Assembly: GCF_009727155.1 (NCBI RefSeq)
Contig: NZ_WNWM01000002.1
Location: 1,426,001-1,490,000, forward strand
Direction of reading: 5' to 3'
Length of the DNA: 64,000 nt
DNA from: Pseudoduganella dura
GTDB lineage: Bacteria; Pseudomonadota; Gammaproteobacteria; Burkholderiales; Burkholderiaceae_D
The position numbers and the translations under genes are program-made. The notes under the pieces were generated by a model, which searched no databases, had not been told where the DNA came from, and was given only the letters and a program-made list of their open reading frames with translations. Below, piece by piece: positions 2,421-15,406 of this stretch. Position 1 is the stretch's first letter; the number at the start of each line of letters is the position of its first letter.

Positions 2421-3023
2421 TCACTGGCGCGCGCCGTGGACCACGTCGACGAAGCGCACGGCCTGCTGCTCCATCTGGATCACGTAGCCGTCCACCAGCG
2501 CGCGGAAGTGGCGGTAGAACACCAGCGTGGGCATCGCGATCGCCAGGCCGAAACCGGTGTTGTACAGCGCCACCGAAATGCCGTGCGCGAGCTGCGTGGG
2601 GTTGTTGCTGCCGGAGCCCGCGCCGAACAGTTCGATCATGCCGACCACCGTGCCGAACAGGCCCATCAGTGGCGCCAGCGAAGCGATCGTGCCCAGCGTC
2701 GTCAGGAAGCGCTCCAGCGTGTGGGCGACACCGCTGCCGGCTTCCTCGATCGATTCCTTCATCACCTCGCGCGGCGCGCTGACGTTGCGCAGCGCGGCGG
2801 ACAGCACCACGCCCAGCGGCGAACTGGTCTCGAGCTTGCCGAGGATCTCGGGCGTGATGTTGCCGCTGCGGTAGACGCGCACCACCTCGTCGAGCAGGTT
2901 GGGTGGAATGATCCGGGCCTGCCGCAACGTCATCAGACGCTCGATGACCAGCGCGGTGGCAACGATGGAAGCGATCAGCAGCGGCCAGATCGGCCAGCCG
3001 GCGGCTTGAAAGATGGCGAGCAA
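2421..3023 (-). CDS. exbB: ExbB/TolQ/MotA-family proton channel protein
   Basis: A 200-residue inner-membrane protein, partner of ExbD. The sequence LLAIFQAAGWPIWPLLIASIVATALVIERL gives the first helix. The conserved LTTLGTIASLAPLMGLFGTVVGMIELF block (about residues 115-145) and the helix NTGFGLAIAMPTLVFYRHF form the channel. I start it at TTG 3023 because AAGGAG lies 6 bp upstream and family members start at this point. An open frame continues to 3251 but reads through the upstream repeat region. Translation therefore begins immediately beside the DnaA-box-like repeat array. Confidence 0.9.
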   Translation of the reverse strand: MLAIFQAAGWPIWPLLIASIVATALVIERLMTLRQARIIPPNLLDEVVRVYRSGNITPEILGKLETSSPLGVVLSAALRNVSAPREVMKESIEEAGSGVAHTLERFLTTLGTIASLAPLMGLFGTVVGMIELFGAGSGSNNPTQLAHGISVALYNTGFGLAIAMPTLVFYRHFRALVDGYVIQMEQQAVRFVDVVHGARQ

Positions 3024-3150
3024 AACGAACTCCTTGTAAAAGCGCAGACGCGCAATGTAGCGTGTTGCCGAGGTGGCGGCAAGTGTGGACAGGCACGATG
3101 TCCCCGCCTGGGACCCCGTGCGCGCCGCTGCGCCACCATCGCCTGCCATG

Positions 3151-3173
3151 TTTTGCACAAATTCTGTGGAAAA
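3151..3173. promoter_or_regulatory. inverted pair of consensus DnaA-box-like 9-mers (repeat unit 1)
   Basis: TTTTGCACA at 3151-3159 and TGTGGAAAA at 3165-3173 both fit the DnaA box consensus TTWTNCACA (in opposite orientation), 5 bp apart. TGTGCGCAA follows at 3177-3185. Binding by DnaA is an inference from the motif only. Confidence 0.45.
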
Positions 3174-3724
3174 GACTGTGCGCAATGCCGACTCAACATT
3201 ATAAGTCATTGATTTATAAGTAAAATACTTTGTAGCACATTTTTTGAGCAAAGGCTATGCCGCCAGCCGCCCGGGGTTCTTCACAACTTCTGTGGACAAT
3301 ATTGTTGGCAACGCTGCCGGCATGCATGCAAGTCGTTGTTTAAGCAGGTAATTTTCAATGTGCGCAAAATGCTTGCAGTACCGCGGCAAGACCCGTCCCG
3401 GGCAGGCGGCCTTCTGCACAGTAACTGTTGATAAGATTGTTGGCAAGGCACTCCGGAGATTGGAAAGTCTTTGATTTATAAGGATAAAATAACAAAGCTC
3501 AAAAATGAGGCAATGGCAGGAAATTGCCGGTTTTTTTGCTCGACTGGCCGGGCTGCTCTCCTTCTGCACAAAATCTGTGGACAATATTGTGCGCAATGCG
3601 GCTGGTAAGCCGCAACCCTGTTGATTCTTAAGGAAAAAACGTCAACGCCCAAAAATTAGGCAGACGCGGCGAAGACGATGCGGTTGCAGGTACCCCCGAA
3701 AAGATGGCCTTTCTGCACAGCTTG

Positions 3725-3733
3725 TGTGGATAA
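3725..3733 (-). promoter_or_regulatory. perfect strong DnaA-box match (repeat unit 5)
   Basis: TGTGGATAA is the reverse complement of TTATCCACA, the high-affinity DnaA box. It is preceded by TTCTGCACA at 3711-3719 and followed by TTGTGGGAAA, the same arrangement as the other units. Function is inferred. Confidence 0.5.
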
Positions 3734-4050
3734 AATTGTGGGAAAGCAGGAAAATCGGAGCGCAACCCGTTGATTTTCCTGATAAATATTTTCGTGCGGA
3801 AATTTTTGGCAAGCGCCTGGAAGTTGTCCACGTTCCCCACAGATTCTGTGGATATCTTTGTGTGTAAGAATCTGCACTGTAGGGGAAGTCCTTGATTTGT
3901 AAGAATAATCTTACGCTGCCCACGAATGCGGCAATCGTTTTTATCCTTATAAATCAGCAGGTTGGAAATACACCTTGCTGTTTTAAGCGAGATATGACAT
4001 AAGCATGACCGCTTGATGACTCTGTGGACAGAATCCGCGATGACTAACCG

Positions 4051-5409
4051 ATGACTACCTTCGACCGCCCCGATTCAGCCCCCGGCCAGAGCGCCGTGAT
4101 CACTGTCAGCGCGCTGAACCAGGCCGTCTCCCGGCTGCTGGAACGGTCTTTTCCATTGACCTGGATCGCCGGGGAAATTTCCAACTTCACGCGTGCCAGT
4201 TCCGGGCACTGGTATTTCACGTTGAAGGATGACGCCGCACAAGTGCGCGCCGTGATGTTCCGCGGCCGTGCCCAGTATGCCGGCTTCGTGCCGCGCGAAG
4301 GCGACAAGGTCGAGGTGCGCGCGCTGGTGACGCTGTACGGCCCGCGTGGCGACTACCAGATCAACGTGGAGGCGATCCGCCGCGCCGGCGTCGGCGCGCT
4401 GTTCGAAGCCTTCATGCGCCTGAAGGAGCGCCTGTCCGCGGCCGGCCTGTTCGACGAGGACCGCAAGCGCGCCCTGCCCCTGTTTGCCCGCACGATCGGC
4501 ATCGTCACCAGCCCGCAGGCGGCGGCGCTGCGCGACGTGCTGACCGCCCTGCGCCGCCGCGCGCCGCACGTGAAGGTGGTGCTTTATCCCACGCTCGTGC
4601 AGGGCCAGCTGGCCGCCGAGCAGATCGCGCTGGCGATCCGCACCGCTTCGGCGCGCGCCGAGTGCGACGTGCTGCTGGTCTGCCGCGGCGGCGGCAGCAT
4701 CGAGGACCTGTGGTGCTTCAACGATGAGGCGGTGGCCTATGCAATCGCCGAATGCGCCATGCCGGTGATTTCCGGCGTGGGCCACGAGACCGATTTCACG
4801 ATCGCCGATTTCGCCGCCGACCTGCGCGCCGCCACGCCCACCGCGGCCGCGGAGCTGGCCGCCACACCGCGCGGCGACTGGCTTGCATCGTTGCGGGCCG
4901 ACGCCACCGACCTGCACCGCGCGATGCGCCGCACGCTGAACGACGCCGCGCAAACGCTCGACCACCAGAGCCGCCGCCTGCTCAGCCCCACGGCGCGGAT
5001 CCGCCAGCAGCGCCTGGCCCTGCTGGCGCTGTCGACGGCGCTGATGCATGCCACGCGCACACCCGTCAACCAGTCACGCCACGCGCTGGAACGCCTGGCC
5101 GGACGGCTGGCCGCGCAGCGACCGGACACGCGCGCCGCGCGGGCGCACCTGGGCGCATTGCAGCACCGCTGCGCCGTCAACATGGCCAGCCGCGTGCAGC
5201 GCGAACGCGAGGCGCTCGGCGCGCTGGCCGCGCAGCTCGAAATGCTGAACCCGCAACGCACGCTGGAGCGCGGCTACGCGATCATTGCCGACAGCAAGGG
5301 CGCGATCCTGCGCTCGCCGGCACAGCTGCAGCCGCGCCGCAAGCTGCGCGTGCGGCTGGCCGAAGGCAGTGCCGACATCACCGTGTCCGGGGTACAACCC
5401 ACGCTTTAA
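4051..5409 (+). CDS. xseA: exodeoxyribonuclease VII large subunit
   Basis: Catalytic subunit of ExoVII, which degrades single-stranded DNA to oligonucleotides in both directions. The 452-residue protein has the N-terminal OB-fold ([30 protein letters not shown], residues 17-46, then [20 protein letters not shown]), the catalytic domain with [16 protein letters not shown] and [43 protein letters not shown] near 245-270, and a coiled-coil C-terminal half. The end [13 protein letters not shown] is typical. Length matches the family. The small subunit xseB is not adjacent. It is divergent from exbB across the repeat array. Confidence 0.96.
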
Positions 5410-14047: not shown

Positions 14048-15406
14048 ATGGGCAACAGCATTCCCAGTATCAAACCAACCCGCGCGCGCTGGACGATCCT
14101 CGCGATCCTGTTCATCGTCACCACCATCAATTACGCCGACCGTGCCACGATTTCGATCGCCGGCCCGGAACTGAGCAAGCAGCTGGGCCTGTCGCCGGTC
14201 GAGATGGGGCTGATCTTCTCGGCCTTCTCATGGTCCTATGTGCTATGCCAGCTGCCCGGCGGCTGGCTGCTGGACCGTTTCGGCACCAAGATCGTGTACT
14301 TCTTCTCGATCTTCCTGTGGTCGCTGTTCACGCTGGCCCAGGGCTGGGTCGGGTTCTTCAGCGGCGGCGCCGCCGTCGCCATGCTGTTCACGCTGCGGCT
14401 GATCGTCGGCGCGGCCGAGGCACCGTCGTTTCCGGGCAATAGTCGTCTGACAACCTCGTGGTTTCCAACCGCGGAACGGGGCACGGCGGCGGCCATCTTC
14501 AACTCGGCACAGTACTTCGCCACCGTGCTGTTCGCGCCGATCATGGGCTGGCTCGTGCATACCTACGGCTGGGAAAGCGTGTTCTTCGTGATGGGCTCGC
14601 TCGGCGTGCTGATGGCGTTCGCCTGGCTGAAATTCGTCCATGGCCCGCGCCAGCACCCGCGCGCGAACGCGGCGGAACTCCAGCATATCGAAAAAGGCGG
14701 CGCACTCGTCGACCTGGAAACGACCGGCCTGCTCGCCGCCGACCGGCCGCAGATCGACACCTGGTCGTGCCTGAAACAGCTGCTGTCTTCGCGCATGCTG
14801 CTGGGCATCTATATCGGCCAGTACAGCATCAACACGCTGACCTACTTCTTCCTGACATGGTTCCCCGTATACCTCGTCAAGGAACGCCACATGACGATCC
14901 TGAAGGCCGGCTTCATCGCCGCGCTGCCGGCGATCGCCGGCTTCCTGGGCGGGGTACTGGGCGGCATCATCTCGGACCGGATGATCAAGCGGGGCTACAG
15001 CACCTCGGTGGCGCGCAAGACGCCGATCATCGGCGGCATGCTGCTGGCCACCACGATGGTGCTGTGTAACTACGTGGAACAGGACTGGGTGGTGGTGGCC
15101 GTGATGGCGCTGGCATTCTTCGGCAAGGGCATCGGCGCGCTGGGCTGGGCCGTGGTCGGCGACACATCGCCAAGCCAGGCAGGCGGCATGAGCGGTTCGC
15201 TGTTCAACATGTTCGGCAACGTGGCCGGCATCACCACGCCGATCGTCATCGGCTTCATCCTGCAGGCCACCGGCTCGTTCTACGGCGCGCTCGTGTTCGT
15301 CGGCGCCAACGCGCTGGTGACGGTGCTGTGCTACCTGTTCCTGGTGGGCGAGATCAAGCGGTTCGAGTTCAGCAAGCCGGTGATCAAGACGGCCGCCGCT
15401 GCCTGA
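14048..15406 (+). CDS. MFS transporter, anion:cation symporter family (sugar-acid permease)
   Basis: A 452-residue 12-helix permease close to the glucarate/galactarate/galactonate transporters (GudP, GarP type). Family marks are ARWTILAILFIVTTINYADRATISIAGPEL in helix 1, the DRFGTK loop, and GAAEAPSFPGNSRLTTSWFPTAERG between helices 4 and 5. The second half has the GGIISDRMIKRG loop. It would import hexarates or hexonates with protons. It stands as a single gene with its own promoter and terminator. The glucarate dehydratase at 33319 gives a possible use for the imported acid. The start follows CCGGAGGCACC. Confidence 0.87.
   Translation: MGNSIPSIKPTRARWTILAILFIVTTINYADRATISIAGPELSKQLGLSPVEMGLIFSAFSWSYVLCQLPGGWLLDRFGTKIVYFFSIFLWSLFTLAQGWVGFFSGGAAVAMLFTLRLIVGAAEAPSFPGNSRLTTSWFPTAERGTAAAIFNSAQYFATVLFAPIMGWLVHTYGWESVFFVMGSLGVLMAFAWLKFVHGPRQHPRANAAELQHIEKGGALVDLETTGLLAADRPQIDTWSCLKQLLSSRMLLGIYIGQYSINTLTYFFLTWFPVYLVKERHMTILKAGFIAALPAIAGFLGGVLGGIISDRMIKRGYSTSVARKTPIIGGMLLATTMVLCNYVEQDWVVVAVMALAFFGKGIGALGWAVVGDTSPSQAGGMSGSLFNMFGNVAGITTPIVIGFILQATGSFYGALVFVGANALVTVLCYLFLVGEIKRFEFSKPVIKTAAAA

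Follow-up and report, generated by a model that had tools for sequence, protein, structure and literature searches.

DARS sites have been worked out mainly in Escherichia coli, which carries them singly at two places, DARS1 and DARS2, and the Fis sites that DARS2 needs lie beyond IHF. As described in PMC5742627, both contain three DnaA boxes with equal spacing, box I being opposite to boxes II and III, and PMC4245941 reports that DARS2 is sensitive to IHF distance. Concerning their distribution, DARS1- and DARS2-like sequences are stated to be conserved in many proteobacteria (PMC10380432), and the DARS2 core-IBS-FBS spacing in E. coli-proximal beta- or gamma-proteobacteria (PMC5742627), a narrower statement in PMC4245941 naming the gamma-proteobacteria related to E. 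coli. Since the first two sources already state it, class-wide occurrence is not claimed as new here. Outside this group, DnaA-box clusters lying away from oriC affect initiation in Bacillus subtilis (PMC13220808).

Here we analyze a window of 64 kb (the whole stretch of DNA under study) from a genome of 6.95 Mb in two contigs, and propose, on the basis of its sequence, that the locus upstream of xseA is probably a tandem array of six DARS-type modules. By analogy with E. coli, the most likely function of such an array would be the regeneration of ATP-DnaA. The label used is DARS-like, not DARS, since the structural features are present and the activity is a prediction from them.

Architecture of the array

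The array spans 3151-3964, about 0.8 kb, between a gene presumed to be exbB-type, following the name given in the initial annotation, and an open reading frame that we take, from that annotation and general knowledge, to be xseA. The repeat search yields a diverged, six-copy direct repeat of 40 nt with start-to-start distances of 126, 135, 150, 149 and 122 bp, and the unit profile (R1), run over the 64 kb window, gives six full-length matches, all inside the array (E 1.2e-10 to 7.4e-8); the cores begin at 3151, 3277, 3412, 3562, 3711 and 3833. Every unit (6/6) shows an inverted DnaA box I, 5 bp, and direct boxes II and III.

This corroborates the composite unit of the initial annotation, one inverted 9-mer with two direct ones, as DnaA-type boxes in that layout. 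Its seven-unit array stands as an array, in both the repeat search and the profile, and is reduced to six units, as the profile gives no match for a seventh, at E up to 10, at 3024-3146 or 3968-4050. Likewise, the spacing of 122-176 bp becomes 122-150 bp, the consensus DnaA boxes assigned to two units come down to one perfect TTATCCACA (3725, minus strand), and the AT-rich segment attributed to five units is found in all six, at +51/52, with 0-2 mismatches to a looser IHF consensus. The whole-genome search for the composite unit that the annotation had proposed gives 11 matches (at most 3 mismatches), six in the array and five solo elsewhere, and none for the reversed pattern. Helical phasing between units is weakly coherent (0.39-0.47 for periods of 10.4-11.0), which relatedness alone could produce, and an Rfam scan of the window returned nothing at gathering scores. 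The predicted features are listed below, with offsets counted from the core start.

2421..3023, minus strand: exbB-type gene (presumed), upstream, divergent from xseA; ORF, start codon approximate
3151..3185, plus strand: unit 1, DARS-type core, box I inverted, 5 bp, boxes II and III direct; R1 29.5 bits, E 3.8e-8
3202..3214, minus strand: unit 1, IHF-type site TAAGTCATTGATT, offset +51; 0 mismatches to consensus
3235..3249, unstranded: unit 1, Fis-like site, offset +84; 2 mismatches (consensus from general knowledge)
3277..3311, plus strand: unit 2, DARS-type core; R1 28.5 bits, E 7.4e-8
3329..3341, minus strand: unit 2, IHF-type site, +52; 1 mismatch, looser consensus
3362..3376, unstranded: unit 2, Fis-like position, +85, poor match; 5 mismatches
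3412..3446, plus strand: unit 3, DARS-type core; R1 29.5 bits, E 3.6e-8
3464..3476, minus strand: unit 3, IHF-type site, +52; 1 mismatch
3497..3511, unstranded: unit 3, Fis-like site GCTCAAAAATGAGGC, +85; 2 mismatches
3562..3596, plus strand: unit 4, DARS-type core, best match; R1 37.4 bits, E 1.2e-10
3614..3626, minus strand: unit 4, IHF-type site, +52; 2 mismatches
3647..3661, unstranded: unit 4, Fis-like site GCCCAAAAATTAGGC, +85; 2 mismatches
3711..3745, plus strand: unit 5, DARS-type core, holding the array's only perfect TTATCCACA (3725-3733, minus strand); 30.0 bits, E 2.6e-8
3763..3775, minus strand: unit 5, IHF-type site, +52; 0 mismatches, looser consensus
3796..3810, unstranded: unit 5, Fis-like position, +85, poor match; 4 mismatches
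3833..3867, plus strand: unit 6 (xseA-proximal), DARS-type core; R1 34.1 bits, E 1.3e-9
3885..3897, minus strand: unit 6, IHF-type site, +52; 1 mismatch
3918..3932, unstranded: unit 6, Fis-like position, +85, poor match; 6 mismatches
3952..3964, plus strand: unit 6, second IHF-type site AATCAGCAGGTTG, +119; 0 mismatches, equal offset in relatives
4051..5409, plus strand: xseA (presumed; exonuclease VII large subunit), downstream neighbour; ORF, 452 aa

R1 is a sequence-only profile built from 74 xseA-upstream cores and holding no enteric sequence, its source records being labelled Betaproteobacteria with the exception of L116 (Gammaproteobacteria). Its building set excludes four cores whose box I was poor, and the collecting pattern itself contains the letters of boxes I, II and III, so part of the box conservation follows from the way the cores were chosen.

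Anatomy of the unit

When the 221 units of the closest xseA loci (53, L057-L109) are aligned by the core, three conserved islands appear. The first is the three-box core, whose conservation is again partly built in, since units were gathered by their box-letter pattern (up to 4 mismatches); the second and third lie outside that pattern, and the IHF island also outside R1. Island 2 fits the IHF consensus TAAnnnnTTGATW (PMC8682772), with columns 48, 54 and 58 (numbering starts at the CACA in box I) conserved at 98, 93 and 95%, and only 0.2-0.4 bits in the four n columns of the consensus. The columns between islands 1 and 2, and those past island 3, mostly carry 0.0-0.2 bits. Island 3, at +85 from the core start, is a 15-bp G-N13-C element with an A/T centre that resembles the Fis consensus, the latter being scored in its commonly known form.

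A perfect reverse IHF match lies at +51/52 in 92 of the 174 upstream units, with 18 at other offsets, and the 60 xseA-proximal units contain 30 perfect forward IHF matches, all at +118 to +121. In the array, all six units have a reversed IHF-type site at +51/52, and the last unit additionally has the perfect forward site at +119. Fis-like sites with at most 2 mismatches are found at +84/85 in units 1, 3 and 4, units 2, 5 and 6 showing 4-6 mismatches. Beyond the xseA loci, 36 of 59 class loci have a forward IHF site (at most 1 mismatch) at 117-121, where 26 other windows give a mean of 1.04 and no more than 5, and a Fis-like site (at most 3 mismatches) lies at 84-86 also in 36 of 59 (mean 0.94 and maximum 5 in 200 shuffles). 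The 59 comprise 19 of the 20 class loci first collected and 40 added to them, these loci being best-scoring hits from 58 genomes, some of the same genera, not a random sample, and one of them (L211) ending before the position of the IHF site.

The reading of the AT-rich segment as an unwinding element was dropped because the segment matches the IHF consensus at a fixed offset. Unit 6, with its core and IHF site at +119, looks like the older module, and the upstream units, with IHF at +52, like compact derivatives of it.

Conservation at xseA and across the class

The closest named xseA relatives are those of Pseudoduganella flava (91% identity in the best protein segment) and P. umbonata (94%). 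Across 80 xseA loci, the 2.2 kb preceding the xseA match hold 222 units with at most 3 mismatches in total; four same-strand occurrences lie elsewhere, all of them in L074, and there are none on the opposite strand or for the reversed pattern. The 53 closest loci (L057-L109) display at least one unit in 45 cases, at least three in 33 and at least five in 28, with a maximum of nine and none in 8, so that the comparison with relatives suggested in the initial annotation finds the array upstream of xseA there as well; the 27 more distant loci (L110-L136) show one unit in 11 and none in 16. L082 has its nearest unit 1191 bp away from the xseA match, and L074 (388-870) has four units more than 4 kb upstream of xseA and one still beside it, as if the array had been split by insertion or rearrangement. 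Loci having no unit with at most 3 mismatches are L076, L085, L087, L090, L096, L097, L101 and L104, with L096 and L104 harboring a weaker unit of 4 mismatches; such unit-lacking xseA loci could allow a test of function by comparison.

At the class level, R1 finds a match in 169 of 223 genomes (E up to 1e-4), which makes it a search model yielding candidate DARS in that share of the sample. A decoy, R2, in which box I is reverse-complemented in place with per-position information equal to R1, matches 16 of the 223 at the same threshold, both class runs scoring 31 candidates per genome under stricter filters. All 19 decoy matches begin at model position 5-9, so that boxes II and III are their main basis. 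Within the family sample R1 matches 57 of 59 genomes and all 34 of 34 genera. The genes next to the core vary: among 15 of 19 class loci whose flanking ORFs were scanned, PriA, HemN/M48 and DctM occur twice each, the rest being mixed or without family.

Chromosomal position and solo elements

Strand polarity was read from FtsK-type octamers (GGGNAGGG), GC skew in 20 kb samples being too noisy. The window contains 0 octamers on the plus and 11 on the minus strand, and five samples between 1.00 and 1.55 Mb give plus/minus counts of 0/4, 0/6, 0/0, 0/1 and 0/3. The strand switches near 3.18-3.20 Mb, about 1.75 Mb from the array, with exceptions in the 2.96-3.52 Mb stretches (one plus before the switch, six minus after it), and a second time between 6.32 and 6.64 Mb. 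From these positions, the array (1.429 Mb) lies approximately halfway along one arm. Its distance from dnaA, relative to half the chromosome, is 0.58, and the corresponding values in the relatives G039, G057, G044 and G024 are about 0.58, 0.65, 0.62 and 0.55 (lengths rounded); the other five of the nine single-contig relatives are without an xseA-adjacent match among the matches listed, G022 having no match. Shared gene order may explain the similar arm position, which is weak evidence. A replication-control-like layout of DnaA-type sites away from dnaA, as annotated initially, is what the locus presents. The array as the main origin was rejected, the octamer polarity being constant across the locus and switching about 1.75 Mb away.

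In this genome, R1 at E up to 1.5e-4 recovers the six units and four further elements, of which two are at 3.321 Mb and the others at 0.306 and 5.62 Mb. The 3.321 Mb pair (C2:3321060-3321660, L021:9060-9660) lies about 110 kb from dnaA; both of its solo DARS-like cores are on the minus strand and have perfect IHF sites at +119/120, and the pair is flanked by genes that we take to be hemE-type and priA-type; DARS-like cores also adjoin priA (Pfam) in two class genomes (L206, L207). At 5.62 Mb (L028:7750-9060) two solo cores lie some 1.1 kb from one another, both having a perfect IHF site at +119; R1 finds one of them and a looser pattern both. Altogether, four of the five solo elements carry a perfect forward IHF site at +119/120, the one at 0.306 Mb being without it, and none of the five shows a Fis-like site within 3 mismatches at 84-86.

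Two further regions, L137:7780-8470 (3.048 Mb) and L138:6000-6530 (3.066 Mb), are rich in DnaA boxes, about 130 kb off the octamer switch; the former contains four perfect TTATCCACA in a duplicated pair and an A/T-rich stretch. Both are candidates for an origin or for control sites. The dnaA-rpmH intergenic region (L022:9893-10320) has one perfect DnaA box only, hence oriC may well not adjoin dnaA.

Trans-acting factors and proposed mechanism

The genome encodes a Fis homologue (E 6.5e-16, an ORF of 77 aa preceded by one that is presumably dusB-like), an Hda-like protein of 221 aa (DnaA-family match), and a DnaA 52% identical to that of E. coli, which keeps L290, D269 and R285 and has His in place of R227, a residue reported to be important at DARS2. 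An IhfA query gave no match within the 1.30 Mb of this genome examined.

In the proposed mechanism, ADP-DnaA would bind the three-box core, the DnaA at box I would meet that at box II head to head and both would lose ADP, and apo-DnaA would be released and then reload ATP. IHF, perhaps together with Fis, would bend every unit to its active shape. This scheme, in which IHF bending helps head-to-head ADP-DnaA to release its ADP, is proposed as the likely one by analogy with E. coli. Six units at mid-arm would provide a strong supply of ATP-DnaA, the dose doubling as the fork passes. More speculatively, and with distinctly less confidence than in the array itself, the Oxalobacteraceae may have expanded a single DARS into a multi-unit array with compact IHF-Fis geometry, which would serve from mid-arm as the main, dose-adjustable source of ATP-DnaA, the number of units (one to nine) tuning the initiation mass. 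Loci with anything from one to nine units ahead of xseA form a natural series that would offer a direct test of ATP-DnaA regeneration against initiation timing; the series also tells the three-box core apart from the placement of IHF and Fis.

Alternative explanations

The initial annotation recognized in the DnaA layout a control locus, which holds, and overlooked DARS, which that layout matches. Its datA-like sink is the second best reading here, possible yet rather unlikely, in which up to 18 boxes plus IHF would soak up DnaA or drive hydrolysis of its ATP, delaying initiation. The datA recipe is likewise several DnaA boxes and IHF (PMC5742627), datA gives partial R1 matches in the two enteric genomes searched and is the top match in the MG1655 stretches, and six units would titrate well, titration being moreover compatible with reactivation. 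However, datA is without an inverted box I at 5 bp and its matches cover only model positions 11/14-34/35, that is boxes II-III, flipping box I lowers the class genomes with a match from 169 to 16 of 223, and pure titration needs no fixed IHF or Fis-like offsets. The same fixed offsets and the same flip, which removes most matches, speak against chance resemblance in a new repeat family, another option of the initial annotation.

Cell-cycle control of xseA (or exbB) transcription, with DnaA and IHF acting at the promoter, would account for units being upstream of xseA and in its orientation wherever they are found (at most 3 mismatches, 80 loci), and for an IHF site at +119 that ends 87 bp before the xseA start. 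We regard it as improbable, because in the class the core stands beside unrelated genes and in this genome it recurs at two other places with IHF at +119/120, because the L082 unit and four units of L074 are remote from xseA, and because six units over 0.8 kb presumably exceed the usual need of one promoter. Least credible of all, and very improbable, is a secondary or former replication origin. Origins are made of the same parts, DnaA boxes, IHF and AT-rich stretches, and dnaA-rpmH offers a single perfect box, but the octamers remain one-directional across the locus: the polarity switch at the site that would mark oriC is absent from six samples at 1.00-1.55 Mb, one of them octamer-free, and is seen, with the exceptions given, near 3.18-3.20 Mb. 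In addition, head-to-head boxes I and II are characteristic of DARS, those of oriC being head to tail (PMC10380432). A tandem array of DARS-type modules remains the preferred reading.

Comparison with known systems

In literature searches on DARS or DnaA boxes in Burkholderia, Betaproteobacteria, Massilia, Pseudomonas and Ralstonia, or at xseA, no title listed concerned this locus, and within the literature searched the tandem array and its compact IHF(+52)-Fis(+85) unit look new. The core itself is familiar, as box I is opposite to boxes II and III and the boxes follow the DARS1/DARS2 spacing in all six units. In MG1655, the unit pattern finds L157:8108 (bioD-uvrB), which we take to be DARS1, and L158:14136 (rppH-mutH), each with equal spacing and 4 mismatches. 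The latter is the DARS2 core, since deletion primers given in PMC4585315 abut exactly 14136-14170.

Run on the Citrobacter sp. and Klebsiella oxytoca genomes (150 of 1343 and 150 of 1839 first-look candidates scored), R1 gave 15 matches at E up to 10. Three of them span model 1-32 and correspond by blastn to the MG1655 DARS1 region (both genomes) and DARS2 region (Citrobacter); the K. oxytoca DARS2 core, visible in L172, is absent from these matches, a neighbouring box being matched instead. Partial matches over boxes II-III, some at datA and some elsewhere, outscored DARS (best E 7.5e-4 versus 8.5e-3), so R1 alone does not rank DARS first, and the feature that singles out DARS is a match reaching from box I into box III. 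In the MG1655 stretches (65 kb) datA is top with a partial match and DARS1 second over model 1-32 (E 0.0016), the DARS2 core being matched over model 1-22 only.

Compared with datA, the array shares DnaA boxes and an IHF site (one in datA) in an intergenic region, and differs in the inverted box I at 5 bp, boxes II-III alone aligning. The B. subtilis clusters are similar in being outside oriC and affecting initiation; the species itself is described in PMC13220808 as having neither IHF nor the DARS loci. DARS1 has the same core spacing and orientation, with R1 matches over model 1-32 in MG1655 and two other enterics, whereas it is single copy and shows no IHF site (at most 1 mismatch) in the 160 bp around its core start. 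Compared with DARS2, the array is made of six tandem units instead of one, in another gene context. Each unit has its IHF-type site reversed at +51/52, with the Fis-like position at +85, while the Fis sites required in E. coli, FBS2-3, lie past IHF; the IHF site of the upstream units (+52, reversed) thus departs from the DARS2 distance, which counts against DARS identity. On the other hand, DARS2 (rppH-mutH) has the same three-box core in orientation and spacing, with IHF-type sites downstream, and its 1-mismatch IHF sites in MG1655 lie at +93 (reverse) and +109 (forward), the forward site of the last array unit, at +119, being about one helical turn further.
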